From positions 682,001-746,000 of the forward strand of contig JAPMOS010000004.1 in NCBI GenBank assembly GCA_027972325.1: a stretch of 64,000 nucleotides of DNA. Direction: 5' to 3'. Numbering within the stretch: the stretch's first letter is position 1; each line of letters opens with the position of its first letter. Under the pieces are notes generated by a model. That model did no database searches and was not told the DNA's origin. It saw nothing but the letters and a program-made list of their open reading frames with translations. The DNA comes from Paratrimastix pyriformis (Eukaryota > Preaxostyla > Paratrimastigidae). Shown piece by piece: positions 1 through 64,000 of this stretch. Both the position numbers and the translations under genes were made by a program.

Positions 1-1062
1 TTCTGGCGGACGCCGAAGCGGTAGCACTTCATGGCGTGCTGCAGGGTGGGGCATTCGGTGAGGCCCAGTCCGGCAACGTGGAACCGGTCCTCGGGCCCCG
101 ACCAGCGCACCTTCAGGCCCACCGGGTAGGCGGGCCGCCCCTCGCGATCCCGGAAGGCTGCGTCAAGGGTGGCGCGGGGGACCCCAAAGCAGGGACAGAT
201 ATGAGCACTGAGAGCACAAGAGCAGCAGCCATGGGCGCGAGATGCTTCTGTGTGGTGGGAAGGGGCGGCGGGAGGCGGCAGACCCTCGACGGGTGGCGGG
301 TGGAGCAGATCGTAGATGCGGTCGTCGTGCAGCAGGGCGTACGAGCAGAAGACGCTGCAAGGGTAGTGCCGGGATCAGGACGGGGAGCACGAGACGAGGG
401 TCGGTATGCAGACCGAACGGGGATGCTCTTCGCCTTGATTTGCTTATACAGGTAGGCCAGACTTCTCGGGATCAGCCCCAGATTGTCGGGTGGCGACTGG
501 CGGACGAAATCGTGAGGAGAGGGGAGAGCGGCGGCGGGGGGATGCCGACCATGAGATCCGGGACGGGGCGGCCCCCTTCTCCGTAAGTCAGCTCGAAGCC
601 GTCCATGGTGTGGGTTTTCCCGGCGCCAGCCGGCCCATAGGCGATGATCGCGCCTGCAGGGGTGAGGGGTGCGTTGTGTGGTGGTGGATACAAACCGGAA
701 ATGCCCGTCAGGAGACTATCGACCATCTCGGGAGTCTTAGAACGAAGAAAAACCTACGAAAGATAGACTCGGATGGAAGGCCCAGATCGGCGACCTCTTC
801 CTGGTTGGCAGATTCATCCAACACGGCATCAAAAGCGTAGTCCTGAGATACGACGGGACCTGGTCCGCCCTTGGCTTGGTATCGTTGAGTTGTGAGTCTG
901 GTGTGTTTAAGAAGTCGGCGGGAACGTGTGTGAAACAAACCGGATGCTGGTATCAGTTATGCATGAAAGGTGTGGTGAACCAGTTTCCTCCTCGGCAATA
1001 AGCGGAGGGCGAATACGAAGCGAGACAGAAACTGGGGCCGATCTCAACGCCAGCGCCTTACA
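1..1062 (-). CDS. Kinesin-like motor protein, N-terminal part, runs off left edge
   Basis: Microtubule motor ATPase; only the first part of the motor domain lies in the window. From the N-terminus I read a first beta strand with SLRIRPP (near 1000-1040), then YAFDAVLDESANQEEV (near 790-850), equivalent to the kinesin FTFDxVFDExxxQxxV block. Next comes the P-loop AYGPAGAGKTHTMDG (near 600-650) and the DRIYDLL element (near 305-325) that follows alpha-3 in kinesins. Reading order is right to left, with short introns between blocks. The P-loop is AGAGKT rather than the usual QTGSGKT, but the catalytic GKT is intact. No in-frame ATG is visible just before SLRIRPP, so the start lies in a small unresolved upstream exon. 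The subfamily cannot be told because the neck and stalk lie outside. Identity as kinesin is firm. Confidence 0.85.
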
Positions 1063-1244
1063 GCCCGCGAAACAAGGCGGCTCGAAGCGGCTGGAAGAGC
1101 GAAAATTACTGAGAGGGCTATCCGACGGTGAGCAAATTTGAATTCAAGGACGGCCTCAGGTGGTGTTCGACGAACTAGCCTTTTGGCAAAATACAACCTG
1201 GAGAGAATGAATTCAATAACATTTAAATATATCTCCCAACAAAT

Positions 1245-2746
1245 TCACTCGCAAACGCTTGGAGCGGTATCGGGGGTTTCCGTGGCGCCAGTTGAAGACC
1301 AAGTGACAAGAGACGCCCAAAGGGCGGCGCAATAAAGGAGGCATCGTGGATCGACCCGAAAGGAGGGAGTGTGAGGAAAAGGTCGAGTGGAAGCCGGCGT
1401 GCCCGGATCGCCCGCACCCATGAAAATCATGGAGCCAGGGATACGTTCTAAATAGTAGGCGAAATCCTCCGACCTGAATGGAAGTCCGAACGCAAATGAA
1501 AGTAGTGCCCATTTTGGCCAGGGACAGACCATGGCCCGGTGGCCAGCTTGTCCGTGACGTGGCTCTCACCCAGCAAAGACCCAGCCACCCTGGAAGCAGA
1601 TGAAGGGTCCATGAAAATGAGGCGCTTTTGTGATGGGGTCCCGGATGTGCCGACCTGAGCAGGTGCTCCGTGCACCGGGGCTCGTTCACGCAGCTGGGGT
1701 ACCCACGATGATACGAAATGCGCGCCTCCAGCTCATGAACGGCCGCGGTCGTTTGGACAATGTGCGCAATGTTGTCCTCCAAGAGCCGTCGCGTAGTCGG
1801 TACCGTTGTCCGCACCGTACCCAAGAGAGTCCCCTGGGGCCCGAACAAAATGGAGGCAAGACAGGGGCGGTCTCATCAGACCTGCGGCGGTGTGACATTG
1901 CCTGTCGTGCCGGCGTGGATGCTGCACACATTGCAGACAGCGATCTCCCCAGGGCGCACCCGCCGAGCGACGGTGGCGTCCAAGCGCAGGACGAGCTCCG
2001 CCAGGGCAGGGATGGGGTCCACCGTCAGGTAGGGCGTGCCTCCGTGGCCCCCCTTCCCCAGCAGGGTCACCTCGAAGCTATCTGTGGCCGAGCTGATCGG
2101 ACCCACCGCCGTGCAGGCATTGCCGGGGTCTAGGGCAGTGTTGCAGTGGAACGCATAGATCTCCGAGACCCCATCGAGCGCCCCGGCCGTGATCATCCCT
2201 GCAACGACAGCAGTGGTCGAACCGGTTGGGACAGAAAATCGCGACCTTGTGCGCCGCCGTCCTTCTCTTCGGCTGGTTGAAAGAGGAGGCGGACGTGGCA
2301 AGAAAGAGCGCCCGGTGGCAATTCAGAGATCATTTTGGCGGCCCCCACGAGAGCGGCACAGTGCAGGTCGTGACCGCAAGCGTGCGAAATCCCGGGGCGC
2401 TGGTTCAGGAGAAACTCATTGGAGGTTGACGAGAAAGAATGGTGACCTCGGAGGCATATGAGAGACCGCTCTCCTCATTGACTGGAAGCGCATCCATTTC
2501 CGCTCTGATTGCAATCCGCCGAACGGGAATTCCGGGTGGAATTGCGGCCGTTGCATTATAATCGGCCACCAATCCGTACTCGAAGATCTTTCGGCGAACC
2601 TTCCACCCAGAAAGCCCGTCCAAAGTGTCGGCAATCTTTTCAGAGGTATTTTTTTCTTCGTGCGAAAGTTCCGGATGCTTGTGAAGATCTTCGAAAAATG
2701 TCAACATCCATGGGTACACTTCTTCGGCGCGTGCAAGAAAATCCAT
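1245..2746 (-). CDS. M20 family metallo-amidohydrolase (hippurate/IAA-amino-acid hydrolase type)
   Basis: Zinc/manganese-dependent hydrolase that in this family removes an acyl or auxin-like group from amino-acid conjugates, or acts as an aminoacylase. Four or more exons. The N-terminal block has PELSHEE and [10 protein letters not shown]. After an intron at about 2400-2449 (donor GTCACC) come the metal ligand motif HACGHDLH and [12 protein letters not shown] with the catalytic Glu pair. After a second intron come [16 protein letters not shown], the dimerisation-domain signature, and [15 protein letters not shown] third intron (donor GTCTGA near 1888) leads to [10 protein letters not shown], and the C-terminus carries [13 protein letters not shown] with the last metal ligand, then a block ending in SVCE. 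All family landmarks are present in order, so the gene looks functional. The start is the first ATG of the exon ([13 protein letters not shown]). The substrate cannot be inferred. Confidence 0.88.
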
Positions 2747-2887
2747 AAAAGTGACGGAAACTTCCTGCAAATTAGTCGTCGATGCGACGGGTTCTCATCG
2801 CACATGTCTTTGACAGGAAAAAAAAAAGGGACGACGAATGGTGATGTTGTGGAGGGAAGAATAAAATCGGTCCTGTATGGTACAGTC

Positions 2888-4488: not shown

Positions 4489-5036
4489 CGGTGCCGGTGG
4501 ATTGATCCACCCAAAGGAGAGACCAACTGGCCGACCAGACGACGGAAAAATTGAAATGAGACTCCCTCGTGCAAGCCTCGTAGGAGGCGAACTAAATGAC
4601 AAAGAATTTTCCTTTCCTCGTCCCTGGCGACCGCCCGACAGCCTGAGCGAGCCTGCACCGGGTGCGGGCCCACTCGCACAAGCACGCGAAGAAGCCAAAC
4701 CCAACTAGAGAAGGACACGATTCTCTTTGGAGCTTCGGTTCAGCCTCCACCGAGGCTGCACTGCGCGCTTATGGTTCGGAGCTGTGGAGCCCACTTATAA
4801 AATTAGGCGTGGGACGGCACACCCCTGCTCGGCAAAAATAAAAAGTAAGAAAAACAACAAACACAAAGCCACAAAGCCACAATGACGCAAACAGCAAACA
4901 GCAAACTGACACGGACACGGACACCAGGAAGCCAGAGGCAGAGAACAGATGGGGAGCAGAAACACGCGAAGAGAAATTTCCGCAAGCCGGGAGGAGGAGG
5001 GAGGAAAAAGAGGGGAGCAGCTTTAGTGCAGCAACT
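4489..5036. other. Intergenic spacer, transporter 5' side and G-alpha/vWA gene 3' side
   Basis: No gene recognised. The right half (about 4830-4920) is A/C-rich with short repeats of CAAACAG and ACGGACAC. Just after the neighbouring stop codon a 13-base element, TTTAGTGCAACTT/TTTAGTGCAGCAA, occurs twice in near-identical form, so a second stop-like copy lies 14 bases further. The part next to 4488 may hold a transporter leader or a small first exon. Confidence 0.5.
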
Positions 5037-8000
5037 TTAGTGCAACTTGGGGGCAGCGGGCACGTCGTTGATCAGGTGCAGCAGGACGGCCTCCTCGCGC
5101 TTCAGGGAGGAGTCGTCCATGATCCACATCTCCCGCTGGAAGTGCGCCAGGAAGGCCCGGAAGAGCCTGCATCCCCCCGGAGGAGCAGGACCGAGGATGA
5201 GCCAAGAGAAACCACGAGGGGGAGGGAGAAGAGGGGGAGGGGGAAGAGAAGAGGCAGAGGAGGGCAGGCGGACCGCTGGTAGGGCTCGGAGACGAAGAGC
5301 GCGTTCTCCTCCTCCTCCCAGGGCCACGTCCAGGTGCCCCACTTGGACAGGTTCCGGATGGGGTGCCTGCGGAGCAAAGAAGAGCGGAAAAGCCCAGCCG
5401 GATGAGGACCGCGCCCCCGCGGAAATGCAATGCAGAGGCATGACAGTTGGGGGCGGGGGGCTCCGCGGCACGGACTGGAGGCCGTGCTCAAAGAGCAGCT
5501 CGGGGATGGGGCTCTGCGCGCGGGGGTCGCGCAGCCAGAGGGTCATCAGCGACATGTACTGGCACAGGACGACGGCCTTGCGCAGGGCGGGCGTGTAGGC
5601 GGGCAGGTGGTGGGCCGAGGGGTTGACGAAGGCCAGCGGGAGGCCCGAGTAGAAGGTGTGCTCCTCCGTGAACGAGTCCACCCACCGCTTGTAGCGCACC
5701 GTCAGGTGCATGCCCGGGGCGACGGCGGCCTCCTCGGGGCTGAGCCCGTCCACCCGCACCAGCTGCACCAGGGCCAGCTGCAGCAGGTCCTGCATGTTGC
5801 CCAGGTCGTAATCCTCCTCGTCGCACAGCGGGCCGCCCTCGGCGGTGGCAGTGCCGTGGGGTGGCGGGGAGCGCTTCCCGCCGTCGTGCTATCCGGAGGG
5901 AGGGAGGGGGGGACGGTGAGCTCACGGACACCACAGGGGGTGGCGAGCGGACCTTGTTGGCGGGGAGGCCGGTCGTGGGCTGCTTGGCGGCCGCCTTGGG
6001 CGGGGTCTGCTTGCTGGGGACGGGGGCGGGGGGCGTGACCGTCACGGCGATGGGCTTTGCCGGGGGCAGGGCCTCGTGGGAGCCCGTGCCGGGGATGGCC
6101 AGGGGAGGAGGCGCATCGACGGTGGACACGGCCCCCGTTGGGGTGGCTGCGGAGGCCGAGGGCGGCACGTAGGGCGGCATGTTGAAGTAGGTGGGCAGGA
6201 AGAGGGCCCGGCCCGTGACCTCGGAGGACTCCTCGTTGCCGAAGATGCGGTGGATGGCCAGCGGACCCGAGCTGCAAACCGCCGCAGATGCAAAAACACA
6301 CAAACAACCCAACCAACCCAACGGCAGGAACGTGAGCCAGTGCGCAAACGCCGTTGTCGTCGGGGGGGGGAGGGGGGAGGAGGAAGGGGCGCCACGGACA
6401 TGTTGACGAAGACCTCGAGGTGGAAGGCGACGGGGCAGAGGAGCTGGGGCAGGTGGGCGAAGCAGTGGGCCAGGTGGTGCTCGTTCTGGACGGCCAGGGC
6501 GTTGCAGCCCTCGATGCGGCCGATCTTGTTGGAGATCCGCGGGATGGACGGGCCCAGGTTGAGCATGGTCGTGTAGGTGGGCATGTGGCGGGCGTGGGCC
6601 AGCGTGGAGATCGCCCGCACCAGGGGCGGGGCCACCTCGACTGGGGGAGGAGCAGGAGAGGAGACCGAACAGTGAGCATTCCGAGCGGTTGTGTGGTGGT
6701 GGTGGTGGTGGTGGTGGTGGTGGTGGTGGTGGTGGTGGTGGTGGTGGTTCGGGGCAGGCAGACCTGCCGAGAGGGGCATCCGGTCGGTGATCAGGAGCAC
6801 CCGGTTCTGGCGCTCGGCCCCGACGTGGGTCTGGGCGAGGTCGCTCTCGACCAGCAGCTGGCGGGCCTTCTGCAGCAGCACGGGCATGATGTTGGACTTG
6901 ACTGCCGGGTGGAGGAAAAACGACAGGAAGGAAGAAGATGAGCGAGACGCGAGGGGAGGCGATGATGCACGGCACGAGGTCACGGGAGGGGGGGGGGGGG
7001 GGGGGGGGGGGGGACGGGGACGGGGACGGGGACGGGGACGGGGACGGACCGCCTTGGGGCTGGAGCTTCTCGACGGCCAGCCGGAGGCGGGCCACGTTAG
7101 GCGGGGTCATGGGGGCCAGCGGGAAGACGGTGGTCACCTCGCCCGCGAAGGTCAGCATGGCCACGTGGTCGCCCGGGTGCAGGTGCGTCACAGCGGTCAG
7201 CAGTTGCTGGGGGTGGCGTGGAAAGGAAGAGAGAGGGAAGGGGCGGGCGGTGTCAGGCGTGCCACAGGAAGGAGGGAGCCGGGGCGACCTTCTTGAGGAG
7301 GCCCAGCTTGGACTTCTCCGTGTTCAGGTGCTGCGCGCGCTGGGTCCACTCCGAGAAGGTCTGTCGCCAGGGTGGGTGGGGCGAGAATCAGAAGATGAAC
7401 GCCAGGCGAGGAGGCCGACCAAAGCAGACCTCGTTGAAACAGCCCTCCATGGTGGCGCTCGTGTCGACCACCAGCACCAGGTTGGTGTCGGTGCGCTCGG
7501 CCTCGAACCGGAAGCGCGACTGGACGCCCACAGCCATGTACCGGCGCAGGTGGCGCGTGAAGGGCTCGGGGCACAGCCCGCAGGTGAACTTGGGCACGAA
7601 GAGGGCCGCTGCAAAGCCGGGGGGCGAGGGAATCAATGAAGAACCGAAACACGCCCGACCGCGCGCCCAGAGGAGGATGGAAGGTGCGCCGACAGACGGT
7701 AGCGCATGAGGCCCTGGTCTGGGGCCTGGACGGAGGCCATCGAGGGGGCCGCCGAGACCAGCGGGGTGGTCGAAGGCTGGGCGGTGGGGGCCTTGGGCGG
7801 CTGGGCGGCCGACTGGACGGCCCCCTTGACGCTCTGCGAGAGGATGAAGGGCGGCGAGAGGGGGATCTCGCCGGCGGGCGGGGCCATCGGGCCCCGGGAA
7901 CTCGTCCGGACGATGGACGCCAGACCCGCGGCGGCCGGAACCGATGCCGGGGATTGCGATGGGGAGGGGGCCGGGGTCGTGGGGGCCGGGACCGGGACCG

Positions 8001-14205: not shown

Positions 14206-15902
14206 ATGCCGAACCTCGCTTCTTTGAAAGAAACTTATTCAAAACTTGTTATTAACAAGCACTTTAACACTGCTTTGGGGTGTCTCGGTCCGATTAAAAG
14301 TTTTTTTCGTATACGATCGTGTGTTGTTCTGTAGCTGTCGTTCTCTGGTCCACATCATTTGCTGTTTCCCGTTCTATTGCTGAAAACCTTGGTGTTTACT
14401 TCGGTGGATTTCTCCGGAATTTGCTCGGGAGTGGCATCGGGCTTGCTGTCGGTTATAAAAAGCTGTACGTCCTGAAGACCCTTTGGAAAGAAAAGAAGCC
14501 CTTTCTCTTTGTTTGCGGATCGAATTTCACCCTTTCGTACATTGCCCTGAACATGTCTGAAAAGTTGGTCTCATGATTTCATCCCTTTTTTCCCAAGTGC
14601 TGTGGGCTGGTGTATCAATCGCGAGCAAACAATTTCTATTTCTACCATTAATTGTCTGCCAATCTTTCTTTTCGGTGCCTTGTCTTGACCCCCCCCCCCC
14701 CCCCCCCCCCCCCCCAGATCTTTTGGCCAATGCTGACCATCCTCTTCTCGACATTCATTATTGGGAGTGGCGGTGGCTGGAAAAAGTGGGTCATTTTGAT
14801 TGCGGGCCTGCTGTGCGCCCTCGTTGGTCTGCTGATGCTCGCGTGCCGCCGCTCATGGGTTTGGATTCTCATCTTCCTCCCACAGGCGTTTGGATCACCT
14901 GCGTTGGTGGGAGCATGGGCGGTCTGTCGGCAACCGGGTTTGTGATATCCATCCCTTTTTCCCCCCAGTGGACCAGTTCTTCTACGAGCTCGTCAATAAC
15001 CCAGGCGCCTACTTCATGGCCGTCGTGGCCGCGGTCTGCCCGCCGCCCCGCTGCGCATGGTGGGATGACGACACGATTCCGGTCTGGGTAGGTGACGTGG
15101 CCCATCTATTCGAACTACAACCGCCGCTGGACGGGGGCCTTCCGGGGGCAGCCCGAGGTCAAGGACGCCGACATCACCGTCAGCGTCTTCCTGTTCGCCA
15201 CCGCGGTTGCCCTGGGCATCGGGTCCATCTTCGAGTTCGCGGGTGGCCTGAAGCTCGTGTGGAGCGTGCGGGTCGGCCTACGCCTCCTTTCCTGGCCCTC
15301 CCCCCACCCCGACTGGCTCCATGTCGTCTTACGATGAATCCTCCCTTCCTGCTTCGGCCCGGGCTGACCCCGTCCAGGGTGTCCTCGAGCTGCTCTACAA
15401 TGGCATCTTCCCGACGTACATCGCGTCGCTCGTCTGGGACGCGGCCATGCGCCGGGGCTCGGTGGTCTTCGTCTCGGCCTTCTCCTTCCTGGCCCCCCTG
15501 ATCGCCGCCCTGACCAGCTCGCTCTACCTCGGGGTGCCCTTCACGGTGTCCTTCTTCATCGGTGCGGTCCTGGTCATGGCTGGCGGGCTTCTCTCGCGGT
15601 TCGGCGTCAAGGAGGAGGACTCCTCCGCCAAGGCGGCGCCCGCGGCCCCCACCGGCAGTGTCGCCTTGCCCGAGGCGACCCCGCAGGAAATTCGTCCCAT
15701 CCTCCGGGCGGAGGAGGGCATGACCCCGTCCGCCAGCCCTGATGCCCTCCCAACCCCTGGGCGATATGGGACAGCCACTTCTGAGGAGGGGCTCCCGAGT
15801 GGCACCCCAGCGTACAAGGCCGTGCCCGATGTGGTCTTTCAGGATCATCCCGCCCCGGAGATGCCCTCGCCCCCACCACTCAAGATGCCAACCACAGCTT
15901 AA
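14206..15902 (+). CDS. EamA/DMT-superfamily transporter
   Basis: Ten-helix metabolite exporter of the plasma or an internal membrane. Exon 1 starts MPNLASLKETYSKL. The intron with donor GTCCGATT (14288-14334) restores the frame to LAVVLWSTSFAVSRSIAENL, the first helix typical of EamA proteins. Later blocks are GVYFGGFLRNLLGSGIGLAV, FLFVCGSNFTLSYIALNMSE, IFWPMLTILFSTFIIGSGG, YNRRWTGAFRG and ITVSVFLFATAVALGIGS. The last repeat carries FVSAFSFLAPLIAALTSSLY and ends in a hydrophilic tail rich in Ala, Pro and Ser. The helix around LWSTSFAVSR and the closing module resemble aromatic amino-acid exporters of the YddG group; the substrate is not proven. The intron before IFWPMLT ends in about 27 C followed by AG. 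Confidence 0.82.
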
Positions 15903-16219: not shown

Positions 16220-26432
<10,213 letters not shown>

Positions 26433-28694: not shown

Positions 28695-31600
28695 CGGTGG
28701 CGGCGGCGGCGGCGGCGGTTGTGGTTGTGGTCGGGAGGACCCTTGGCGGACCTTGCCGAGCTCGTTGCGTGCGTTGCCCAGGCGGCGTTTGATGAACTCG
28801 ACGGCCGAGGTGTCCCCCACGGGGGAGATCAGGAAGAGCGCCCGCAGGTAACCCTGCGCCCGCATCCCCCCACGCAGCAGCGCGTATGCCAAACCAGAGC
28901 CAGTCAGAGTCAGCCAGGGGACGATCTGATCGCCGCGCCGGGCGGGCGACGCATGGCTGATGGGGTGGTTGTGGGCAGGGCGCCGACCTCGAGGGCCATC
29001 TGGAGGAGGTCCTCGGGCTCGGCGACGAGCACCCGGGGCCCGCGCTCCCACATGGCGCGCCCATCCCCGGCCCCCGGCCGGCGGGTAGGGGTGCCATCAG
29101 CATCATCATCGTCGTCGTCGGGGGCGTCATCCTTGACCAGTGCCCGCCGCAGGACGATCTCCTTGCCCTGGGGGTCGGGCAGGGCGGCCTGGGCTGCCCC
29201 GGCGGCCGTGCGAAGGATGGGGATCGGGTCGGGCTGGGGCTCGGGGAAGCCCGGGTAGTGCAGGTGGCCCAGGGTGGGGAACTTGAGCAGCCCCGAGGAG
29301 GCCGCCAGGCTCGACGAGGCCGAGACCACGCCCTCGATGGGGCTCCGTACCAGCTGGTCCAACTCAAGCAGCTGCGGGGAGGAGGAGGAGGAGGAGGGAG
29401 GGAGGGAGGGAGGGAGGGAGGGAGGGAGGAGGGAGGAGGGGGAGGGAGGGAGGAGGGAGGGAGGGAGGGAGGGAGGGAGGGAGGGAGGGAGGAGGAGGGA
29501 GGGAGGGAGGGAGGGAGGGAGGGAGGGAGGGAGGGAGGGAGGGAGGGAGGGAGGGAGGGAGGGAGGGAGGGAGGGAGGGAGGAGGGAGGGAGGGAGGGAG
29601 GGAGGGAGGGAGGGAGGGAGGGAGGGAGGGAGGGAGGGGGAGGAGGAACCAACCAGATATGAGTGAGACCAGGCTGTTGCTGCTGTTGCTGCTGCTGCTG
29701 ATTGGATGATGGTTGATGATGATGCGGATGTGGTTGAGACCTCCGAATGGGGGCTCGTGGCGGTGTTTCTGTGGATGGTTGGATGGGGGGCTGGGGGGCG
29801 GTGTTTCTGTGGATGGTTGGATGGGGGGCTGCGGACCTGGGGCTGCGGGGGCGGCTTTGCGGGGGCGTGGGCCGCGAGCCTGGCCTGGTACTCCTGGTAG
29901 GCGGCCAGGTACTGCTGCAGCCGGACGTGCATCCGCTGGCCGAGGCCCGTGCAGCAGGTCGCGTAGATCGTCCACGTGGCCGCCAGCAGCGCTGGGTGGA
30001 TGCGGGTCGCGGGGTTCGCCTGGCGTGCGCAGGGGGGGGGGGGGGGAGGGTCGGTCGGTTGGCAGGCTGTACTCCAGAAGGGCTTGTCTATTTTTTTTTT
30101 TTCCTCTGGCCTGGAGCTGGTGCCTGTGCTGGTGTCTTGGGTTTGCGGGTTTGTTTGGGGTTGACAAGGCCAAAACAAAGCCGACCCTTGTATCATTGTC
30201 ATCAACACTGGCGAGGGCGGGCGGGGGCGGGGACGGACATCGCGCTGGGTGTCTTCGCTGCCGGGGGTCGCAGCCGCGGGTGGCTCGAGGAGGTGCAGCC
30301 CACGGGCCGCGTAGTCGAGCCATAACAAGCTTTGCCTGTGTGTGTGTGTGTGTGTGTGGGGGTGAGGTCAGCCCATGGGTGTGTGATGATGATGATGCGG
30401 CTGGATGGAGGAGCGGCGGCGGCGGCTGGGCAGCAGCGGACTCGTAGTTGCCGGCGGCGAGGGCGTCCTGGGCGAGCATGAAGTGGACCCGGGTGATGGT
30501 CTCCTCGACCTCCCGCAGGAAGTCCGCGTTGGTCGTCTCCATCGTCAGCACCTTCAGGCACTGCACAGCCGCCACACCCCACACAAACAAACAACACAGA
30601 CACACAAACAAACAACACAGACACACAAACAAACAACACAGACACACAGAGACACAGACACACAAACAAACAACACAGACACACAGAGACACAGACACAC
30701 AAACAAACAACACAGACACACAGAGACACAAACAAACAACACAGACACACAGAGACACAAACAAACAACACAGAGACACAAACAAACAACACAGACACAC
30801 AGAGACACAAACAAACAACACAGACACACAGAGACACAAACAAACAACACAGACACACAGACACACAAACAAACAACACAGACACACAGAGACGCGATCA
30901 TTCGGGATGCCGATTGATTGAAGGGGGCCGGCACGGCCGTGTTGTGAGGAGGAGGGTGATGGCAGTGGGGCGGGCCTTGGTCAGGGCGGTGAGCATGGTC
31001 ATGTAGGGCTCGCCCGGCCCCGTGGGCGCCTCATCCAGCGGGTCCGCAGCGTGGGGCTTCTCCGTGGCAGCGGCGGCCTCCCCGCCCTCGGCTGCCGCTG
31101 GTGCCGACGGGGCCGCGGGGGCGGAACGCTTCTCCTCCGCCCGCCGGCGGGCCTTCCGCCTGGCGGCAGCGCGCTGCTGCTGGGTCTGCCGGGCCCTGCC
31201 GGCGCCGCCCTGGGCCGCGGGGTCGGCCTCCTCGCCTTCGCTGGGCTCCTCGCGCAGCTCGGCCTCGGCCTGCCGGATGGCCTCCTCGTAGGCGGCCCGG
31301 TGCCAGGGCAGGGGCGGGAAGACCCACAGGGCCGTGGGCAGGTCGCCCTGCTGCTGTTGTTGTTGTTGCTGCTGCTGCTGCTGCTGGGAGCGCAGGTGGG
31401 GCGGCAGGTACATGTCGTGCTCGGCTCGCAGGGCGGCCCGCAGGTGTCCCGAACCCGAGACGAGCCGCTCGTGTGCCTCGGTCTGGGGGACCCGGACCGG
31501 GTATGCGCTCTGGCCCATGCGGAGCGAGGGCCCCGCGGCGGCGCTGTTCTGGGGGGCCAGCGAGAGGACCGTGTTGGGGGGCAGGTAGGACAGGGCGATC

Positions 31601-31967: not shown

Positions 31968-34709
31968 CGGGAGCGGACGCGGATGAGGCGCACCCCCAGG
32001 CGGAAGCAGAGCATGGCCACAGGGAACCGGAGCGGGCTCACGCGCCCCTTGCCCACGGGCGGGGGGTGGGCGGCCTCGTCGGGACCGCTGGCCGGGGTGG
32101 CGGTGGCAGAGTCGGCCGTGGACTCGGCCGGGGGCGGGTCGGCCTCCTCGTACAGACGGACGGTCGTCTCACCCGCGTCCTTCACGAGCCAGTAGGTCCC
32201 TGCGGTTGGGCAGCCGGAAGGCCGGGCGGGGCACAAGGCCGGGCGGGGTGGGTGGAGAGATGAATGGGCGGAAGTATGGATGGATGGAGGGATGTGGGTG
32301 GACGTGGGTGGATGGGTGGGCCTGGTGGCGGACCGGCCTCCTGGGTGCAGTTCTGCTGGAGGAAGTGGATGATGCTGTGGGCCTTCTCCAGGACGGCCTT
32401 GGGCTCGAAGGCCCGGAACTCGCTGGTCAGGTCGGGCAGCTCGTCGGTCTTGACCAGCTTGTAGCCCTGCACCACGCCCTCCTGCACCAACCATCCAAGG
32501 GTGGTGAGCGCAAACCGGATGGCGATTTGGAGGAGAAGCGGCGGGAGGGCAGGGTGGGAGGGGAGGGGAGACCTTGTGGAAGCAGATGGCGGCCTCGGGG
32601 ACGTTGCAGATGATGTTGTCCAGCCACATGTCCAGGCAGGCCAGCGATGAGACCTCCTGCGTGGCGGGGTCGGTGTTGTGGCGGGGTCGGTGTTGGTATG
32701 TTGGTATGATCGCATGTTCGTGTGCGTTCGGGGTGCGGTGAGTTTGAGGTGCGGTGCGTTCGGAGTTTGAGGTGCGTTCGGAGTTTGAGGTGCGTTCGGA
32801 GTTTGAGGTGCGTTCGGAGTTTGAGGTGCGGTGCGTTCGGAGTGCGGTGAGTTTGAGGTGCGGTGCGTTCGGAGTGCGGTGAGTTTGGGGTGGTTTGGGG
32901 TGCGGTGAGTTTGAGGTGCATCCATCTTCGTGAATGGCGATTCACCTGGCTTGTGAAAGTAGCCTGCGTGAGTACGACAGCCAACAGGCAGTAGCGATCT
33001 GAAGGCGAGGGGGGTGGGAGGCATGATGGCAAGGGCCGGACCTTGTCCAGGTCCATGAGCTGCAGGGAGACCGAATGGTGCTTGGGGCTCGAGAAGATGA
33101 GCAGGTCGCTGCCCAGCACCATGGACAGGTCCCGGAACTGCCAGTGCACTGTCCGCCGGAAGGGCATCGTCCCGGGCGGGGGCGGGGCCGTCAGGGGCTG
33201 GCTGACCATCGAGGAGCGCAGGGAGATCTGGGGCGGCCGGTCGCCGGCCGGCCGGACGACGGTTGTGGCGCTCGTGGGTTCGGCGTCCTCCTCGACCAGG
33301 GTCGGCTCCACCTGGCCCTCGAGCTGCGGGCACACCGGGTCCTCGCCCGACACGCTGTAGTAGAGGAACTTGTGGTAGAGGGCCTCGTGCAAGGCCTTCA
33401 TGTGGCGCCGCCGGTGAAGCACCCGGGGCAGCCGACGGGCGGGCGGAGGGAGCGGACGGGACGAGAAGGAGCCAGGCGGACACTCGCTGCTGGCGGGCTG
33501 CTCCATGGGGAGCGCGGCGGACTGAGGCGGGGGCGTGGGCGGGGTGGTGATGATGGGCGGGGGGATGGCGCTCGGAGGGGGCGTGGTTGCCGGGGGCGGG
33601 ATCAGGGGCGGTGAAACGGGTCGAGGTCCGCGGGTGTGTTCAACCGGAGATCGCGGCGCGGCACGGGACTGTGGAGGACTCAAGGGGCCGGTGGTCCCAT
33701 GCGGCCGGGAGAGGGCCAGGGGCGGCACCCGGGGCGGGGTCGGCGGCGGGGTCGGGGGTGGGGTCGACACGGCCGATGCCGAGGGCGCAGGTGATGTGGT
33801 CGAGGCGTCCCCGTCGCCAATGGGGATAATGAACGACACGCGGCTTGGCGGGGGGGTCAGCGGGGACGGGGGCTGGGAGAGCCCGGCAGGGGCCGCCGTG
33901 TCGGTAACGGCCGGAGCGGGGGGCGCCGTGCCCAGCGGAGCAAAACCGGGTGGGGGTGCGCGCTGCCGGAGGGGCTGTGGCACAGGGGGAAGCGTGATAT
34001 CGGCCCAGGCGGTTGGCGACTCGGAGAGATAGACTATGACCCGTTGCTTGTTTGTCAAAAGAAATAAAAGGACAGACTGTCATCAACAGCTCCATCGAGA
34101 ACCAGGGTTGGCCCGACTTTGTGAATGGCCATCGAAACGCGTGCCTAAAGAGAACCAAAAGATCGGAACGGTGCCTTCACTCCAAGGTGACGCACGGACT
34201 GTACGAAAAGGGATTTCGATGAGTTTTTTTAGATTCTCTGCTGGTGCCAGAATATGAATATCTCCAAGCCCCTCTGGAAGAGGGTAATTCTCAGCACCAC
34301 CGGAGGCCATCGAACAGGAATCCTGGCTGGTCGAGAGATGAGGGACTTTTGATTCCTGGCTCGCAAGATCAAATGTTTGTAGCACGCTCACCAAAGAACT
34401 ACTAGGGAGTTCTGACTCTGGGTCTTCCGATGGGATTAATGCCTGGGAAGCTGATTCGAGAAGCTACACAAGAATCGATGTGAGGATTTCGAGTCTTCAG
34501 TTCTAACAGACAGAAGTGTCACGATCCAACCAATTTGGCGGGGGACAGTGAAGATTCGTCTCACATTGGACCTCGTGGAATCCCAGCAATGGCGGTCCCC
34601 GTTCGGGATGCTCCGCAATGGTTGTAATCCGTCCCAACAAGTCTGTCTCGTGGTCTCCATTCGCATCCGGCTCTGTAAGAACATCTGACAGCGAACTACT
34701 TTGCCACAT
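26576..34709 (-). CDS. EDRF1: EDRF1-like protein with TPR-type helical repeats
   Basis: Large protein related to erythroid differentiation-related factor 1. The start MWQSSSLSDVLTEP is followed by an intron (donor GTCTGTTAG) to LLESASQALIPSEDPE; then NLKKLIEIPF, another intron (donor GTCCGTGC), and RVSMAIHKVGPTLVLDG. A proline-rich linker leads to the family core: VHWQFRDLSMVLGSDLLIF, CLDMWLDNIICNVPEAAICF, GYKLVKTDELPDL, FLQQNCTQEAGTYWLVKD and FPVAMLCFRLGVRLIRV. Then come RTRYAEILATSHFQIALSYL and helical repeats such as FIKRRLGNARNELGKVLLEK, AKECFQRAVEEFREIG, HAIALCNQAQICIQAHNLH and AIGYYEQALVVLSSG. It ends WRTEAPLKM. The order and wording match animal EDRF1, including the DNLICNVPE-type core. 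Poly-Q tracts occur in coding exons (13 Q at about 31348-31386, 7 Q near 27970). Introns hold large minisatellites. The molecular role of the family is poorly known. Confidence 0.88.
29389..29640. repeat. (GGGA)n tetranucleotide array, about 250 bases
   Basis: Interrupted GGGA/GGA array inside an EDRF1 intron, next to the exon ending LLELDQLVRSPIEG. In sense orientation it is CCCT-rich, a polypyrimidine stretch. All long open frames across it (Pro-Ser-Leu or Arg-Glu-Gly repeats) are repeat artefacts. Confidence 0.85.
30581..30890. repeat. Minisatellite of ACAAACAAACAACACAGAC-type units
   Basis: About a dozen units built from ACACAAACAAACAACACAG and ACACAGAG blocks in variable order, within an EDRF1 intron between the exon with LKVLTMETTNADFLREVEE and the next upstream exon near 30960. 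It is purine/A-rich on the plus strand and T/G-rich in sense. Open frames reading Cys-Val-Leu or Thr-Gln-Asn repeats are artefacts. Confidence 0.85.
32740..32910. repeat. Minisatellite of TTTGAGGTGCGTTCGGAG units
   Basis: Seven or more degenerate units of TTTGAGGTGCG with TTCGGAG or GTGCGTTCGGAG spacers, in an EDRF1 intron. The following intron border leads into the exon CLDMWLDNIICNVPE at about 32600-32650. Confidence 0.8.
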
Positions 34710-36787: not shown

Positions 36788-37878
36788 TCAGCAGGAGCTC
36801 TGCTCGAGCCACGGAAACCGGTCCGTGGTGGCCCCCTCGAAGGGGAGCAGGTTGGACTCGATCGTCTGGCGCTGCTGGGGGGTGGCGCCCCCGGGGCTGT
36901 CCCAGATCTTGGACCCGTAGATGATCCCGTGCCGCCGCAGCTCGAGCATGGCCGTGGGCCCCTTGCTGCTGGCCGATGTGATCACCATGTGCACCATGTG
37001 GATCAGCTTGACAAAGGGGTCGTGCAGGGCCGCATCGGGGTTGGCCAGGCTGCGCGAGAGGCGCACACCACAAGGAGAGGTGAGGAGGCGTGTGGGACCG
37101 GGGGGATACAGACTCCACCTCGAAGTAGGTCAGGTGCTGCGCATTGGCGAACTCTTCGGCCTCCTCTTGGGTGATCACGCGCCTATCGGGGGGAAACACA
37201 CAGGCTATTGAGTCTGCGGCGGGGCAGGGCGGACCTCTGCTGTTCGTCGGTCATCATCCCGATGAGGATCTTGGGGAACTTGCCCTCATCCTCGGGCTTG
37301 CCGGGGGGCAGCATCCACGAGGCCAGGTCGTGGTAGGAGTCGGAGTCGTTCACTGTGGTGCCAGAGGCGGGTGAGTGTTACGTCCGACCGTCTGGTATCT
37401 GTGTGTGTCTGTGCGTGCATGACCAGACCGTCGTAGACGTAGATGGTCCCAGCCGCTTCTTGGGCGAGCCTCATGGTCAGGGGTCGGAGTTCTTCGGTTC
37501 CTGGGAATGGGGTGTCAGAAGAGCAAACCGAAAAATAAATGTAAAGACCAGGGTAGTCCCAATAGTGAATCTCAAATACCTTACCCGGTTCGTACTTTTC
37601 CTTGTACATCATGATGCCATCATTGACGAGCTCGGGCGGGGCATGTCTTGGGTCACCTAACTCCAAAAAGGGTTTTCATACGATAATCCGGAGATCTGAC
37701 CATCATAGATATGCTGGATTAAAAGGTCAGTCTTATCGACCGTCCCAATCACGGCAATGTTGACCAAAAAATGGAATTTATCGTCATTTTCACCAAAAAC
37801 CCGATCTCCTCCTTCGGAAGCCTGCTCCTTGCCGAGTTTCTTTTCGATCTTTTTTTCGAGCTCTCGAATTTGTTGCAT
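36788..37878 (-). CDS. Degenerate Rab/Ras-like GTPase with N-terminal coiled coil
   Basis: Start MQQIRELEKKIEKKLGKEQ, a charged coiled coil before the GTPase fold. The fold is recognisable by FLVNIAVIGTVDKTDLLIQ (strand 1 and P-loop position), EELRPLTMRLAQEAAGTIY followed by VYD (strand 4, as in YYRGAAGALLVYD), NDSDSYHDLASWM, PKILIGMMTDEQQ and ITQEEAEEFANAQHLTYFEV. The nucleotide motifs have decayed: the P-loop is GTVDKT, two residues short of GxxxxGKT; the DxxG position reads YEPG; the NKxD position reads MMTD. This is probably a pseudo-GTPase. Introns: GTAAGG donor after EPG (canonical type), GTCTGG after YVYDG, GTCCGC after DEQQ. The reading frame upstream of the first Met stays open for some 20 codons. 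It ends PWLEQSSC, with no classic CaaX or CC prenylation end. Confidence 0.72.
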
Positions 37879-43992: not shown

Positions 43993-45282
43993 TCATTCCG
44001 CTGGCTGGAGTGGGGGTGCGGGCACGGGGTCAACGGGATCTTCGAGGAGGGGCTCTCGCATGGCCCCTCGGGATCCCTTCTTGGCCTTTCCGGCGCCTTT
44101 GCCCCCCTGTGGTGGTATGCTCTTTTGGGAGAGTGCCACCGGGGCACTATCGGCCAGTCCCGCCCTCCGGCGTCGGTCGCCCTCTCGCGCGTTCCGTTTC
44201 CTCTGAAGTCGCTCGATGGCATTAATCACCGGGGCTACATGTGGCGTGTCGGCCTCCACGACCGGGGTGAGCAATCTGACGATCTGATCGAAGGTGGGCC
44301 GGGCGGCGGGGTCCTCCTGGAAGCAGGCGGTGATCACCTCGCGCATGATGGGCGGACACTCGGGTGGGATGGCGAGCCGGCCTCCCTGGGCCACCACCAT
44401 GATCACCCGCAGCGGGGGAATCTCCGCCCAGGGCACTTGACGGGTGACCAGCTCCCAGCAGACCACCTAACGGATCGGGCCGATCGGCGGAATGTGAGAC
44501 CCGGCCTTCCACCGATCCGGGAGCAGCCAGACCCCATACGAGAAGGCGTCCGAGGGCAGCCCGGACCGCTCGGCCCGGAGGACCTCGGGGCTCGACCAGC
44601 CTGCGGACGGACCCCAGAAGCATGAGGATATGACCCCGGACATGGGGCGAAGGGGGGGGGGGGGGGGGGGGGGGGAGCCACGGACCGGGAGTGCCGGCGG
44701 CCGTGGTGATGCCGCGGTCGTCGGTCAGCCTGGAGATACCAAAGTCGCTCACCTGCGCGGCGCCCCCCACATCCCATTCCCCCGAGAATTGCCCGCATGA
44801 ACAGGGGCCGGTCGGCAGCGTGTGGTGTACAGCATGGCGGGGCGGGGCGGACCTTGATGCGCATGTCGGCCGAGACGAGCATGTTCTGCGACTTGATGTC
44901 CCGGTGCACAATGGGCGGCACCAGGTGGTGCAGATACGAGATCCCTGCGCGCCGACAGCATCCCGGGCCGCCGAAGGGATGGTGGGTGCGTGAGGGAGGG
45001 AGAGGCGCTCTGGGTCGACGGCGGCGCGGCGCGGCGGGTGGGTGGGCGGACCTTTGGCGATATCGAGTGCCATCTGGAGGCGGAGGCTCATCGGCAGCTC
45101 GAGCTCCTCGTCGTGCAGGATGCCGAAGAGCGAACCCCGCTCCATGAAGTCTGCCCCGGCCCAGACCAAGACCCCCCGATCAGCCCCCCACACACACCCC
45201 GATCGGCCCCACCCATGACAGATACCGAGAAGACAATCGTTGGGTGGCATTGGGTTGGAGAGGGAGGGAAGGTCGCCTGGGG

Positions 45283-45313
<31 letters not shown>

Positions 45314-47664: not shown

Positions 47665-47704
<40 letters not shown>

Positions 47705-56942: not shown

Positions 56943-56991
<49 letters not shown>

Positions 56992-59900
56992 AGTGGCGGG
57001 CGGACCGGATGGCGCCGGCGATGTTGGACAGGAGGACCTCCGAATCGACTGTCTGGAAGAGGTACGCCGAGATGGGCGCCACGGCCACCGCCTGCACAAA
57101 CAAACACACGCACACGCACACACACGCACACACACATCACCACAGCCCACAGCCGCCGGAAGGACACAACCGCAGACAAGACACAGACGCACAGGGGAAG
57201 CGCATGAAGATACAAACAGGATGCCCCGTGAAGGGTCACCACCATCGTCATCATCAAGTCATCATCATTCTCATCTAGTCACCAGTCATCATCCAGTCCT
57301 CTCCCAGTCATCATCCAGTCATCATCAAGTCATCACCCAGTCATCACCACCCTATCGCGGGGCGGACCAGGATGACGAGGAGCAGCCCCACGAGGAGCAG
57401 GCTCCGCATGAGCCACCGCCTGGGGCCGGCCAGCTGGGTGGTCTCCACGGCCCCGTCCTCGTCCTCGCTGTCCTCGCCCCAGGCCGACCCCCGCGCCCGC
57501 TGGTCATCGGGCCCGGCTTCGCCGCCCACCTGGGCCCGGGTCGGGACCGTGGTCAGGGCATGCTCGTCCACGGCCGCCACTGCGCCCCCCTCGGTGATGC
57601 CAAGACGGGTCCGGTCCGTGGCCCGACTGGGCTCGTAGGCCACGACGGCGATGGGTTTGCTGCTGGACTCCTGCTCGAGCTCCTCGGCCAGCTCGATGTA
57701 GTCCCGGGCCTGCTCGGGCACCCGGTAGACCAGCTGCGGGCACGGAGGGGAGAGAGAAAGCGAGGAGGGGCTTCAGGTGAGTGCGGTTTCTCCCGCCTCG
57801 GGGTTGCTCGCGGCTCCGCGGATGGACGGGAGGCTCGGCTCACTTGGGGGGATTTGTATCAGCGGGATTGGATTGCTCGTTCGTGACTGATGCCGAGGGG
57901 CACGCATGAGAGGGTTTGCGTGGACGGATGGCGATGGTGGTGGGCGGTGGTTGGTGGTGGTGGGCGGGTGGCGGGACCTCGAGGAAGACGGCGTAGCTGC
58001 GGAGGACGCGCGGGGTGGCCCGCTGGAGGAGCTTGGCGTAGCGGAGGTTGGCCTGCTCGGTGTGGGCGATGATGGCGTCCAGGTGCTCGATCAGGTTGCC
58101 CTGGATCTGCACAGCCAGCCCCAGGGGATGGTCCGACGGGCGACCCGTGAGCCTTCCGGGGGGCGGGCGACGGGGCGGGGCGACGGACCTGAGGCAGCAT
58201 GCGGAGGATGTTCGAGTGGTGCACCGAGAGGGACTTGTCCTTGCCCTCGTCCCGCTCCGGCCGGCCGGCCGCGCCGCCCTGGGCGCCCGCTGCCTCGTCG
58301 GCCTTCGCGGTCCCCTTGGCGCCTGTCGGGTCGGGGAGCACCCAACGGGGTGAGGGGAGTGAGGAGACGTGCCCTGAAAGGTGTGGCGGGGGACCGTGTG
58401 TGTGGGCCGATGTGGGTGCGGACCCTCGTGCTGCTTGAGGCAGCGCCTGATGAGTTTCCAGAACTGGGTCAGCTGGGCCCGGACAATGTCCCGCGACCGC
58501 TCCGCTGGGGGCCCGGACGCAAGCGCGAGGCAAGGGAGAAGGCAAATGTCGAGGGGAAAGGCAGCCGAATGATGAGACCAGGGGCCAGAGAGGGGACGTG
58601 GACGGGAGGGGACGTGAACGGGGGGGACGTGGGCAGGTGGCAGGGGCACACGGTGGCGGACCCAGCTTGTAGTCCTGCTCGAAGGCCATCCCCTGCAGGA
58701 AGGACATGCTGTTGGTGTCCCTGCGGTGGTCGGTTGGTGGGCCATCAGCACACAGCCGCGGAGATGAGCAGAAGAAGAGATGAGATGATGACACATGACC
58801 GATCAGATCAACACATGAGCGACGAGCGAGCGATGAGGTGGGCAGTGAGGGGGCGGTATGGGCGGGCGGGGGCGGCAGACGTGGACTGGGAGCTGCGCAG
58901 GGTTGAGATGAGCCGGTTGGAGAGGGGCCGCAGGTAGAGGGGGATCTCGGTGCCGTCCAGCTGCCGGTGGGCGATCAGGGCCTCGTTGACGTTATTTTGC
59001 ACCGTCAGCAGGAAGTTGGTCCGCATCAGCACAACCAGCGGGTGCTGCACGGCATCACCGCACCGGGCCGGCCCCCACCCACGCACAGAAGAGAGCGGCA
59101 GGAACAGGGGGCGGGAGCATGAGCGTGGGAGGGATAATGATGGCTGGCTGATGATGATTGGATGATGATGGCTGGCTGATGATCAGGTCGGTGATGGCGG
59201 TGATGCTGGGTGGTGGTGGAGGCTGACCTGGGGGAAGCAGAACGTGACGTAGCTGAAGAAGTACTCGATCATCGAGTCCACGGCAGCCACCTCGACGTCG
59301 CTCGGGCTGGGCTGGTCGGTCACACTCTCGCCCGCGGCCCCCGTGCCACAGTTCACTGCACAGACCCCCCCGCCCACGCGCACACACACCGGTTGGGTGA
59401 TGAGCCGCCCAGGCCGGTCAGCTTTCCGCAGGGGACGAGGCGGCACGGGACGGGCAAGTGACCATCGAGGGGCATCGAGGGGTTGGGTGCCGCCTCGAAG
59501 CCTGGCCTGCCGCCCCCCTTGAGCTGCTGCCGGGTGACGCTGGCCAGCAGGGCCGTCCCGGCCGGGTAGCGCTTGGAGAACATGAGCACCTTGTCCCGCC
59601 GCACGAGGGCGTTGCGGTACTGGACCATGGCCCGCAGCATGATCTCCGCCTGGAAGACCCACCGCACCCGGGGGAAGGGGAACCCGGGGTCGGTGGCTCC
59701 AACCCGGGTCGGCAGGGGCGACGCGACGACGGCCGACTGGATGGCCCGATGGATGACCCCGCCAGTGGCGGGGCCCGAGAGGGAGAGCGACCCGCTGGGG
59801 CCCGGGGAGCTGGGCGGCGAGAGGCTGCCGGCGAGGCTGCCCCGGCGACCCCGGCTGGCGGCCACCTGGTCGGAGAGCTGCAGCTGGGTCACGAAGGTCG

Positions 59901-61653: not shown

Positions 61654-61713
61654 CCAAAAGTTGGAAAAACGATTGACAGAAAGCCCCGGGTCCTAAGCCA
61701 CCAAGCGCAGGGC
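61654..61713. promoter_or_regulatory. Divergent promoter region, TmcB-like / NEPRO-like
   Basis: Just 60 bases separate two start codons facing away from each other, the tightest spacing in the window. Either leaders are very short or transcription starts overlap. No specific element is seen. Confidence 0.5.
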
Positions 61714-62721
61714 ATGGATTTCTCCCTCTTGATCAGGCACAGCGAGCAACTGGTGATGGAGTCGCGAATCCTGGACCGACTCCTCTACCGTAATAAAAAC
61801 CAGATGCGCCAGTCCATCCATTTCCACAAGCTGGTTGAAGTGAAACGTAAGCTGGGCCGCTTACCTTTGGGAGCCGCCATTGATTTGCTATCTCACTGGG
61901 AAGCTGTTTCCAAAGAACCACTCCAGCTCACTCAGGCGCTCACTACTCTCCGGCTCTTCCGGATTTCATTATTCCAGCTGATTTCGGCGATTGAGGGCGC
62001 CTCTCTTGCTGTTGGCCAAGCAATTGCACTCACATATCTGCTCCATTTCAGCACTCTGATGTATTCAATGTTGTCTCGGCTTCATGTTATTTGCCAGCAC
62101 GACCTTCTTCCGCAACTCAACAAGACCCTCCACACACTGGAGATCCACGCCAAGCCGCAGCCCTCTGGGCCGACTCCTTGGCTCCCTGCAGTGGGATACA
62201 TCGCCCTCCCTCTCATTCCCCCTCCCCCTCTCAGCTCATCGTCCCCTCTTTGGGAACCCCCAGCCTCCCTCTTCGCACCCCATCGGCTGCTGAAGAGGCA
62301 GCGCACGAGGCCATCCCCCGTGCAGGCTGAAGAGATGGCGGAGGCTCTGCCGTTTGTTGTCGATGCGAGCGGTGGGCACGTCTCGGAGGATGAAGAGGCC
62401 ACCCCCGTCTCATCCATCTCCCCACCGCCACAACTCCCCCCCGCTCCTGAACTTCCCGCACTCGCGCTCGCGCCCTCTCCCCAACCGGCGGATTTTGCAC
62501 TCACAGCCGGTCATCCCGAGTGTGTGCCCGCCCAAGAGGAGGAGGAGGACGAGGAGGACGAGGCTCCGCGTGGCCTCTTTTCCCGCGCCCGGGTCCTCCC
62601 CCAATCTTCTGGCGAGTCCTCACCCATCCCCCCGTGTGCGCCCCTGGCCCCCGTGCTGTCGCCCGTCCAGGAGTATGTGCATGTGGTTTATGATGAAACT
62701 GAGAGCGGTAATGTCCAATAA
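61714..62721 (+). CDS. NEPRO-like (nucleolus and neural progenitor protein) domain protein
   Basis: Single uninterrupted frame of 335 codons. The N-terminal half is helical and carries the wording of the NEPRO N-terminal domain: ESRILDRLLYRNKNQMRQSI, HFHKLVEVKRKLGRL, then LGAAIDLLSHW and QALTTLRLFRISLFQLISAI. The second half is disordered and rich in Pro, Ser and Glu with an acidic run (EEEEDEEDEA), ending DETESGNVQ. NEPRO proteins act in the nucleolus, in pre-rRNA or RNase MRP-related processing in better known species. Unlike most neighbours the gene is intronless. The match rests on the LLYRNKNQHRR-type block, so assignment is moderate. Confidence 0.68.
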   Translation: MDFSLLIRHSEQLVMESRILDRLLYRNKNQMRQSIHFHKLVEVKRKLGRLPLGAAIDLLSHWEAVSKEPLQLTQALTTLRLFRISLFQLISAIEGASLAVGQAIALTYLLHFSTLMYSMLSRLHVICQHDLLPQLNKTLHTLEIHAKPQPSGPTPWLPAVGYIALPLIPPPPLSSSSPLWEPPASLFAPHRLLKRQRTRPSPVQAEEMAEALPFVVDASGGHVSEDEEATPVSSISPPPQLPPAPELPALALAPSPQPADFALTAGHPECVPAQEEEEDEEDEAPRGLFSRARVLPQSSGESSPIPPCAPLAPVLSPVQEYVHVVYDETESGNVQ

Positions 62722-62862
62722 GAGCGCTCGTGTTGTCCCACACTGTTCGATCTCGTTCAAGTGCCGCGTGGGGCTCCTGAAATGTTGGGCAGCAATTCAG
62801 TCTAGACGAAATGACCTTGATTTGAACTGCCCCCCTCCGAAAAAAGGTCATTTGGCGAACTG

Positions 62863-64000
62863 ATGAGGGGATGGGCACGATGCGAGTTCGTTCCTGTCCG
62901 TGCCGACTGTCAAGTTGATGCTGATCCAACCTGTTGGGTGAAACTGGCTAACGTCATCAGATTCTCGGACTTTTCTGGCAGCTGACACGCTGGACCAGCT
63001 ACCATCTGAACTTGTTTTAAAGGTATTATCTTTTCTCGACCCGCATGAATTATTGCAAATCGGATGGGTCTCACATCGATTCCGGGTATTCAGCGAAGAT
63101 CCCACTTTGTGGCTCATCCACTGCGTCAACATTTGGCGGATTCCTTTATTTATGACCGATTTCACGGATTGGAAATCTCTCTACTTTTCTGTCAAGGACA
63201 ACTGGTCAACAGGAGTCCATCATCCTATCTTTTTGCAGCCGGTCTTTGAGTCGGCGCGCGGTACTGTCCCGCCCCAGTCCCCCGTCCCAGATGACACGGT
63301 CTCTTTGACTTCCTTCCGACCACCGCATTCCCACCATCTTCCTGTTGTCAGAACCTCAGTTTTGCCACGTATGCCCTGGAGATTCGGATGCCCCTCCTGT
63401 ACGTGGGCACCGATCTGGACAACACCATCCACGTGTGGGACCTGGAATCGGGGGAGTTAGTTCACGTGATGCACGAGGATGGTCATACACGCCCCGTCAT
63501 TTGCCTCGATGCCTCCCAGCGGTACCTGGCGAGCGGCAGCGAGGACAACACGGTCAAAGTCTGTCCGGCGGCTGTCCCCCGACCCCGGTTATGTTGCCTA
63601 TCTCCTGATGCCAAATTCACCTTCTTCTTGCCACAACCTGGGCGCCGGCAGGTGTGGGACCTCGAGACGCACAGCTGCCTGCGAACCCTCACGGGGCACC
63701 GGCAGAAGGTGTACCGACTCGACTGCCACGGGCCGGCCATCGCCAGTGCCTCCTGGGATAAGACCGTCAAGGCCTGCGGAGCACTTCCGCCGCGACTCGG
63801 GGAGGGGAGAGGGGGTGAGGGGGGCAGGGTCGAGGCGGCATCATCGAGTGTCTTCTCATCTCCAACGTGTCTCCCGTCGTCGGGTGGCGGGCTGGGCTGG
63901 GGTGCGCGCGGCCAGGTCTGGGACGCCACGACGGGGACCTGCCAGGCGACCTTGGAGTCGGGCAGCAACGTGCAGTCGGTCTGCTGGATGCGCACGGTCC
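62863..64000 (+). CDS. F-box and WD40-repeat protein, runs off right edge
   Basis: Substrate-recognition subunit of an SCF-type ubiquitin ligase. The F-box is clear: DTLDQLPSELVLKVLSFLDP, HELLQIGWVSHRFRVFSEDP, TLWLIHCVNIW. After an intron (donor GTCTTT near 63240) come WD repeats: LLYVGTDLDNTIHVWDLESG, YLASGSEDNTVKVWDLETHS, CLRTLTGHRQKVYRLDC, IASASWDKTVKVWDATTG (joined across introns). Introns between repeats start GTCTGTCC and, in one case, apparently GCCTGC. The start is placed at the ATG at 62863 with a donor GTGCCG inside a short first exon; this start is uncertain. The protein continues beyond the window. The repeat order resembles Fbw7/MET30-type proteins, but the target cannot be told. 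Confidence 0.82.

Follow-up and report, generated by a model that had tools for sequence, protein, structure and literature searches.

The base that follows GT at the start of an intron, and the component that reads it, are the question raised by a 64,000-base stretch of the Paratrimastix pyriformis genome (the window; bases 682001–746000 of contig JAPMOS010000004.1, numbered C332 here). The initial annotation of the window had noticed that exon joins in unrelated gene families put C at intron position +3 and usually C or T at +4, instead of the usual GTRAGT donor (R, A or G), and had regarded the pattern as genome-wide. Three consequences were predicted: a changed U1 small nuclear RNA (snRNA), a reduced role of U1 pairing, or donor choice led by U6 and U5. 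Donors were examined in the window and in the whole assembly (56,060,509 bases, 495 contigs), together with the snRNA genes. From sequence comparison, these are very probably U2-type spliceosomal introns whose donor code has been rewritten together with U1, as a genome-wide compensatory co-change within an otherwise standard spliceosome.

Donor sequences and their placement

Introns were placed with a spliced protein-to-DNA aligner written for the analysis, which allowed GT/GC-AG ends only, scored every GT equally, penalized GC and made no use of U1. For dynein, the template was a long open heavy-chain frame of the same genome (L013); for kinesin, four motor domains were used, and for cilia- and flagella-associated protein 58 (CFAP58) two PDB chains (8glv/8j07). 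The targets were 29 dynein loci (L014–L042), 30 kinesin loci and the CFAP58 gene of the window. Merging of identical donor contexts left 195 distinct introns. An intron was considered firm when barring its donor cost at least 20 quarter-bits (dD) and barring its acceptor likewise (dA). By this definition 38 of 71 dynein, 59 of 107 kinesin and 14 of 17 CFAP58 introns were firm, 111 in total, with a median length of 178 bases.

In the firm introns, +1 is always G, +2 is T in 106 and C in 5, and all acceptors are AG. Position +3 is C in 104 introns (T 5, G 2, A 0) and is, by information content, the most constrained base after GT. Position +4 is C in 70 and T in 29, a pyrimidine in 99 introns (A 6, G 6), +5 is G in 97 (C 12, A 1, T 1) and +6 is C in 61 (T 33, G 11, A 6). 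On the exon side, G is found at −1 in 86 and A at −2 in 65. The pentamer GTCYG (Y, C or T) begins 78 of the 111 firm introns, and GTRAG none of them, nor any of the 195 aligned introns. As GTC and GTCYG make up 33.5 and 5.3% of the 20,241 GT sites of the same loci, the excess among donors is large (binomial p = 8e-41 and 9e-73, respectively). The 84 joins below the threshold have GTC in 36 cases, GTG in 8, GTT in 6, GTA in 1 and GC in 33. The claim of C at +3 and C or T at +4 thus holds beyond chance, and the sequence analysis confirmed that predicted donors open with GTC(C/T)G in place of the usual GTRAGT. Many contigs show the pattern in their dynein and kinesin genes, as expected if it is genome-wide.

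Thirteen of the 100 firm GTC donors lack G at +5, and all 13 have A at −2 (p = 5e-4) and G at −1 (p = 0.036). This is a compensation between exon and intron of the kind described at donors of other eukaryotes (PMC11732430, PMC10599564; here and below, citations refer to excerpts of the papers). Three further couplings were not significant in the 100 donors: −2 A and −1 G with +4 T, +4 T with +6 T, and a pyrimidine at +4 with +5 G. The acceptors of the 111 firm introns read GCAG/G, with C at −3 in 98 and G at −4 in 62, and are preceded by a weak pyrimidine tract.

The placement of the donors was controlled in three ways. Forcing all donors to GTC reduced the summed dynein score from 51,488 to 51,396, a loss of 92, as opposed to a loss of 13,498 (to 37,990) upon forcing to GTA/GTG. 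GTC was the best third donor base in 28 of 28 intron-bearing dynein loci (of 29), which overlap and represent about a dozen genes. When any dinucleotide was permitted within 9 bases around both ends of the 38 firm dynein introns, the GT-AG join was still the best in 22. In the other 16, the gain of the alternative was at most 8 quarter-bits in 11 cases and 10–22 in five, and the alternative dinucleotides had no common pattern. Most joins are thus located narrowly by the protein evidence, which alone is no proof of GT-AG ends. In the third control, a coding-potential model was used that permits any GT-AG and includes neither a splice motif nor homology at the tested genes. The dynein loci supplied its codon table, and firm-intron interiors its noncoding model. 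As the model merges neighbouring genes (seven were predicted in the window), it was used for donors only. Among its 134 donors in the window, 100 are GTC, 62 GTCYG and none GTRAG, compared with 34.3, 5.5 and 2.7% of the 6,363 GTs of the window.

These controls bear on the possibility that the joins are alignment artefacts, the true donors being nearby GTRAGT sites or the segments being retained, an outcome that the initial annotation had itself named as contrary to its claim. No GTRAG was found among the 195 aligned donors or the 134 of the homology-free model, and the loss on forcing GTA/GTG was 13,498, versus 92 for GTC. In addition, the joined CFAP58 exons match an 868-residue PDB chain almost end to end (8glv chain LP, E = 2.1e-109, query residues 17–842 of 843). 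An artefact would be favoured by the 84 of 195 joins below the firmness threshold and by the 16 of 38 firm dynein joins with a better non-GT-AG alternative within 9 bases, but its probability is considered negligible.

U1 genes and their pairing with the donors

Eight U1 genes were found in the 56-Mb assembly with the Rfam model RF00003, with scores of 50.8–60.2 bits (E = 4e-13 to 2e-10) and alignments spanning positions 1–166 of the 166-position model. All eight start with ATACAGACCTTG, where the consensus has ATACTTACCTG. Their donor-pairing segment is ATACAGACC in place of ATACTTACC and reads ACAGACC instead of the canonical ACUUACC, as UU at positions 5–6 is replaced by AG (AUACUUACC to AUACAGACC) in every gene found. 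The first-loop GATCAC (GAUCAC) is present in all eight, and a Sm site, AUAAUGUUUGG, is aligned to AUAAUUUgUGg in one of them (L001). Several consensus pairs are unpaired in the two alignments viewed. A canonical ATACTTACC in a U1 context was sought with a pattern left free at positions 5–6, which would miss a U1 without GATCA or without T at position 10: TT occurred in none of the 12 matches, which comprise the eight U1 genes and four places without U1 sequence downstream. IMG/VR was also scanned with a loose pattern for a relative's U1; two of the 57 matches passed a crude Sm-site filter, neither of them U1-like by eye.

A CCCATAA element lies about 60 bases upstream of all 16 snRNA genes read (8 U1, 4 U6, 2 U2 and 2 U5; L001–L012, L074–L077), and the U1 genes thus appear to have the same type of promoter as the other snRNA genes. 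This shared upstream element resembles CCCATAATTTTTCC. The eight genes are described as divergent U1-like snRNAs that would act as U1, rather than as formal members of RF00003.

The contacts of U1, U6 and U5 bases with donor positions are in part general knowledge. The remainder is taken from published accounts (PMC11732430, PMC10581693). In the pairing register used, G6 of U1 faces +3, A5 faces +4 and C4 faces +5. The first of the three consequences predicted in the initial annotation was therefore observed, since all eight detected U1 genes are altered at the bases facing +4 and +3. Pairing is unchanged for C4 (with +5 G), A7 (+2 U), C8 (+1 G) and C9 (−1 G), and the ranking at +3, C and then T, is the order expected opposite G6. 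When the 16 possible choices at U1 positions 5–6 were tried with the donors fixed, the four best mean duplex energies all had G6: GG (−10.53), AG, the cell's own (−7.26), CG (−6.6) and UG (−6.43), whereas the canonical UU gave −3.25. The own U1 end separated the 111 donors from 3,000 GT decoys with an area under the curve (AUC) of 0.898, compared with 0.701 for the full canonical end. Among the 256 tetramers at positions 3–6, the own ACAG ranked fifth (0.898), ACUU 75th (AUC 0.713) and ACGG first (0.938).

A C-rich, GC-rich genome might have drifted to GTCC by base composition alone, with an unchanged machinery. Intron interiors contain 36% C, and +4 and +7 are also C-rich, as this would require. 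However, GTC amounts to 33.5% of GTs whereas +3 is C in 104 of 111 introns, with no A, two G and five T, and +5 is G in 97; a GC bias alone would permit G at +3. The alteration of U1 at exactly the bases facing +3 and +4 is a further argument, and composition as the sole cause is regarded as extremely unlikely.

Matches to the other major-type snRNAs were all present in the genome: ten for U2 (nine above the cut-off), seven for U5 and four for U6. U6 keeps the standard ACAGAGA in all four copies, the U5 loop is standard in the two of seven copies read (GCCTTTTAC, GCCUUUUAC loop), and the branch-site sequence of U2, GUAGUA, is standard in the one of ten matches read. The initial annotation had proposed inspecting the donor-pairing bases of both U1 and U6; the change was found in U1 and not in U6. 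Neither U6 nor U5 is visibly changed in the copies read to explain C at +3.

These results also bear on the idea that U1 pairing has little weight, with U6 and U5 choosing the donors and the change in U1 being neutral drift. Commitment to a site has been argued to come at U6 (PMC11732430), and +4 does not strictly follow U1 A5. On the other hand, no donor base other than GT is as constrained as +3, where the preference follows U1 base 6. The U6 ACAGA box is not known to pair with +3, and no change was seen in the U6 and U5 copies read. Choice by U6 and U5 without U1 is considered very unlikely.

The preferred explanation, a co-change of donors and U1, does not account simply for +4. C is more common than T there although A5 pairs with U, the one detail in which the otherwise supported interpretation of the initial annotation differs; likewise, C exceeds T at +6 (61 versus 33) although U1 A3 pairs with U. 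Measured against the base composition of introns, +4 has a 1.75-fold excess of C and a 1.05-fold excess of T, and purines are 3- to 4-fold rarer there. Three mechanisms would each be compatible with this: an A+·C pair flanked on both sides by G-C, an inosine in place of A5, since inosine can pair with C and wobble with U, or a U disfavoured by N6-methyladenosine (m6A) at A43 of U6. The last is rated highest of the three, as a guess. The methyltransferase METTL16 has been linked to avoidance of U at +4 by Parker et al. (PMC10581693). A METTL16-like piece with an NPPFF motif, matching the U6 A43 methyltransferase of PDB 6gfk (E = 2.7e-17), is present in the genome. Given this piece, loss of METTL16 was rejected as the cause of the +4 shift.

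In the proposed course of events, UU at U1 positions 5–6 would have become AG, which lets G6 pair with C at +3 and places A5 opposite a pyrimidine at +4. The co-change may have proceeded stepwise through the multi-copy U1 family, mixed U1 copies coexisting while donors drifted, and the canonical copies would then have been lost. At +4, one may guess that A5 excludes purines while m6A43 of U6, for which the METTL16-like gene is present, disfavours U, so that C remains. The U1 genes are presumably expressed and used, and selection on pairing would have driven the change. It is likely, though less so than the co-change itself, that this eukaryote has a reassigned core donor code: all functional U1 would read GUCYG, donors would have followed across an intron-dense genome, and such a cell would misread GURAGU introns. 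If so, the excess of C at +4 would point to an edited or protonated A5 of U1, or to a tug-of-war between A5 and m6A43 of U6.

Several observations weigh against these interpretations. All eight U1 matches score below the Rfam gathering score of 69.5 bits, and as scoring covered only 41 of the 992 first-look candidates, further U1 genes could have been missed. No U1-C gene was found, the sole zf-U1 match having been set aside as presumably resembling WBP4 rather than U1-C, and a search for the N-terminal domain of U1-70K gave no match anywhere in the assembly. GG at U1 positions 5–6 would fit the donors better than AG, both by AUC (0.938 versus 0.898) and by duplex energy (−10.53 versus −7.26), and the preponderance of C (70) over T (29) at +4 is not that expected opposite A5. 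On the donor side, in addition to the 16 free-end alternatives, the coding model found a noisier pattern in a further 19 loci (for the most part short flanks of snRNA genes, plus METTL16, zf-U1 and a ribosomal RNA (rRNA) fragment), with GTC in 43, GTCYG in 26 and GTRAG in 1 of 76 donors, perhaps because these stretches are short.

The LUC7 family has been tied to donor choice in other organisms. Matches to it lie on two contigs, G000:C474 and G000:C46.

Comparison with other spliceosomes

The 5′ end of U1 is treated as nearly invariant, and the share of U1 on the one hand and of U6 and U5 on the other in setting the donor consensus is debated. In a survey covering 227 Saccharomycotina genomes and 9 from outgroups (236), ACUUACC of U1 was invariant, and shifts at +4 were not matched by changes in U1 (PMC10581693). 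As in that survey, the 5′ end of U1 pairs here with the exon end and the intron start and U6 keeps ACAGA, but U1 bases 5–6 are changed, and +3 with them. An earlier study could not clearly show that donor variation correlates with complementary U1 sequence (PMC10599564). Wherever U1 is described in the excerpts, its donor-binding sequence is invariant or kept, except in a C-stretch copy of a diplonemid (PMC10581693, PMC11732430, PMC12621601, PMC3510501, PMC6461891, PMC13326754, PMC10599564).

That diplonemid, S. specki, carries the C-stretch copy beside a standard U1 and has a canonical 5′ splice-site logo (PMC12621601). Both species thus carry a U1 gene whose 5′ end is changed, but in P. pyriformis all detected U1 genes are altered and the donors follow. 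The tunicate Fritillaria borealis also has unusual introns throughout its genome, 95% of them deviating from GT/AG. The 5′ ends of its two U1 versions do not differ, U1 is stated to have retained its complementarity to canonical sites, and changes in U2AF and m6A are invoked (PMC13326754). In P. pyriformis, by contrast, the introns appear to have GT-AG ends, and it is U1 that has changed. Entamoeba has a genome-wide non-GTRAGT consensus as well, with GUUUGUU donors, but its U1 snRNA is cited as absent (PMC6085484) and there is thus no U1 to show a matching change; U1 is said to be absent from Cyanidioschyzon too (PMC6085484, PMC11732430). Giardia is likewise a protist with a divergent U1, but its U1 candidate retains ACUUAC at the 5′ end (PMC3510501). 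Neither a genome with C at +3 of its donors nor a U1 with AG at positions 5–6 appeared among the titles and abstract starts listed from the open-licence PMC literature.

The genome of P. pyriformis looks like a natural compensatory mutant at the scale of a whole genome. As +3 tracks U1 base 6 while U6 is standard, the contributions of U1 and U6 to the donor would be separable base by base. Most introns of this genome would probably be overlooked by gene finders trained on GTRAGT.

CFAP58 and other features of the window

The CFAP58 gene occupies positions 16220–21838 of the plus strand, with a start codon chosen by eye and a stop taken from the coding model. Its introns were placed by spliced alignment to 8glv/8j07 (dD and dA in brackets). 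The donor is GTCCGG at 16589–16639 (32, 33; acceptor TTTAG) and 16897–17043 (35, 35), GTCCGT at 18071–18192 (24, 24) and GTCTGC at 20184–20318 (54, 90). GTCCGC begins the introns at 19461–19746 (70, 70), 19866–20087 (28, 28; cited in the initial annotation) and 20771–20882 (74, 80). G at +5 is lacking at 17109–17264 (GTCGCC; 23, 29) and 21318–21515 (GTCCTG; 65, 54). The GC donor GCCCGC is found at 18988–19309 (78, 108), where C at +3 is retained, and at 21008–21170 (80, 56).

The five plus-strand donors first reported, at 14288, 16316, 16589, 19866 and 35061, all have GTC at the exact base. The first is GTCCGATT at 14288–14295, a putative donor of an EamA gene according to the initial annotation, located by the motif; an exon at 15378–15725 matches PF00892 (EamA, E = 8.5e-10). 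On the minus strand, where GGCGGAC had been reported at nine exon edges, this motif lies within 25 bases of seven; at the other two, 5948 and 33038, the coding-model donors read GTCCGC and GTCCGG. Coding-model donors lie within 5 bases of seven of the nine positions, and none lies within 25 bases of 45318 or 60033. Minus-strand donors predicted by the coding model read GTCCGCC at 23215–23221 (donor at 23221), 28745–28751, 37228–37234, 45045–45051 and 58655–58661. A GTCCGGC donor at 33035–33041, from the same model, adjoins an exon matching PF23788 (EDRF1_N, E = 2.5e-6).

Four of 20 exon pieces of the window have a Pfam match at E = 0.01 (EamA transporter, EDRF1_N, IMS Y-family polymerase domain and right-handed beta helix), and 16 have none at this threshold. 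The window contains 12 C-runs and 12 G-runs of at least 15 bases, for example at 14689–14715, 18306–18325, 19180–19217 and 20067–20085. Those within CFAP58 are all intronic, with C on the coding strand. Tandem GGGGAC repeats are found at 7010–7045 and 22638–22802, the latter adjoining a minus-strand stretch at about 22900–23060 that is ubiquitin-like by eye.

Outside the window, a 185-base piece of 18S rRNA (L080, G000:C20:39505-39689, minus strand), 83% identical to the yeast query, lies between apparent protein-gene exons. Other contigs carry six further 18S matches, including a full-length one at 76%, and a partial 18S–internal transcribed spacer–28S unit (L079, G000:C317) matches a 205-base yeast piece at 95%.

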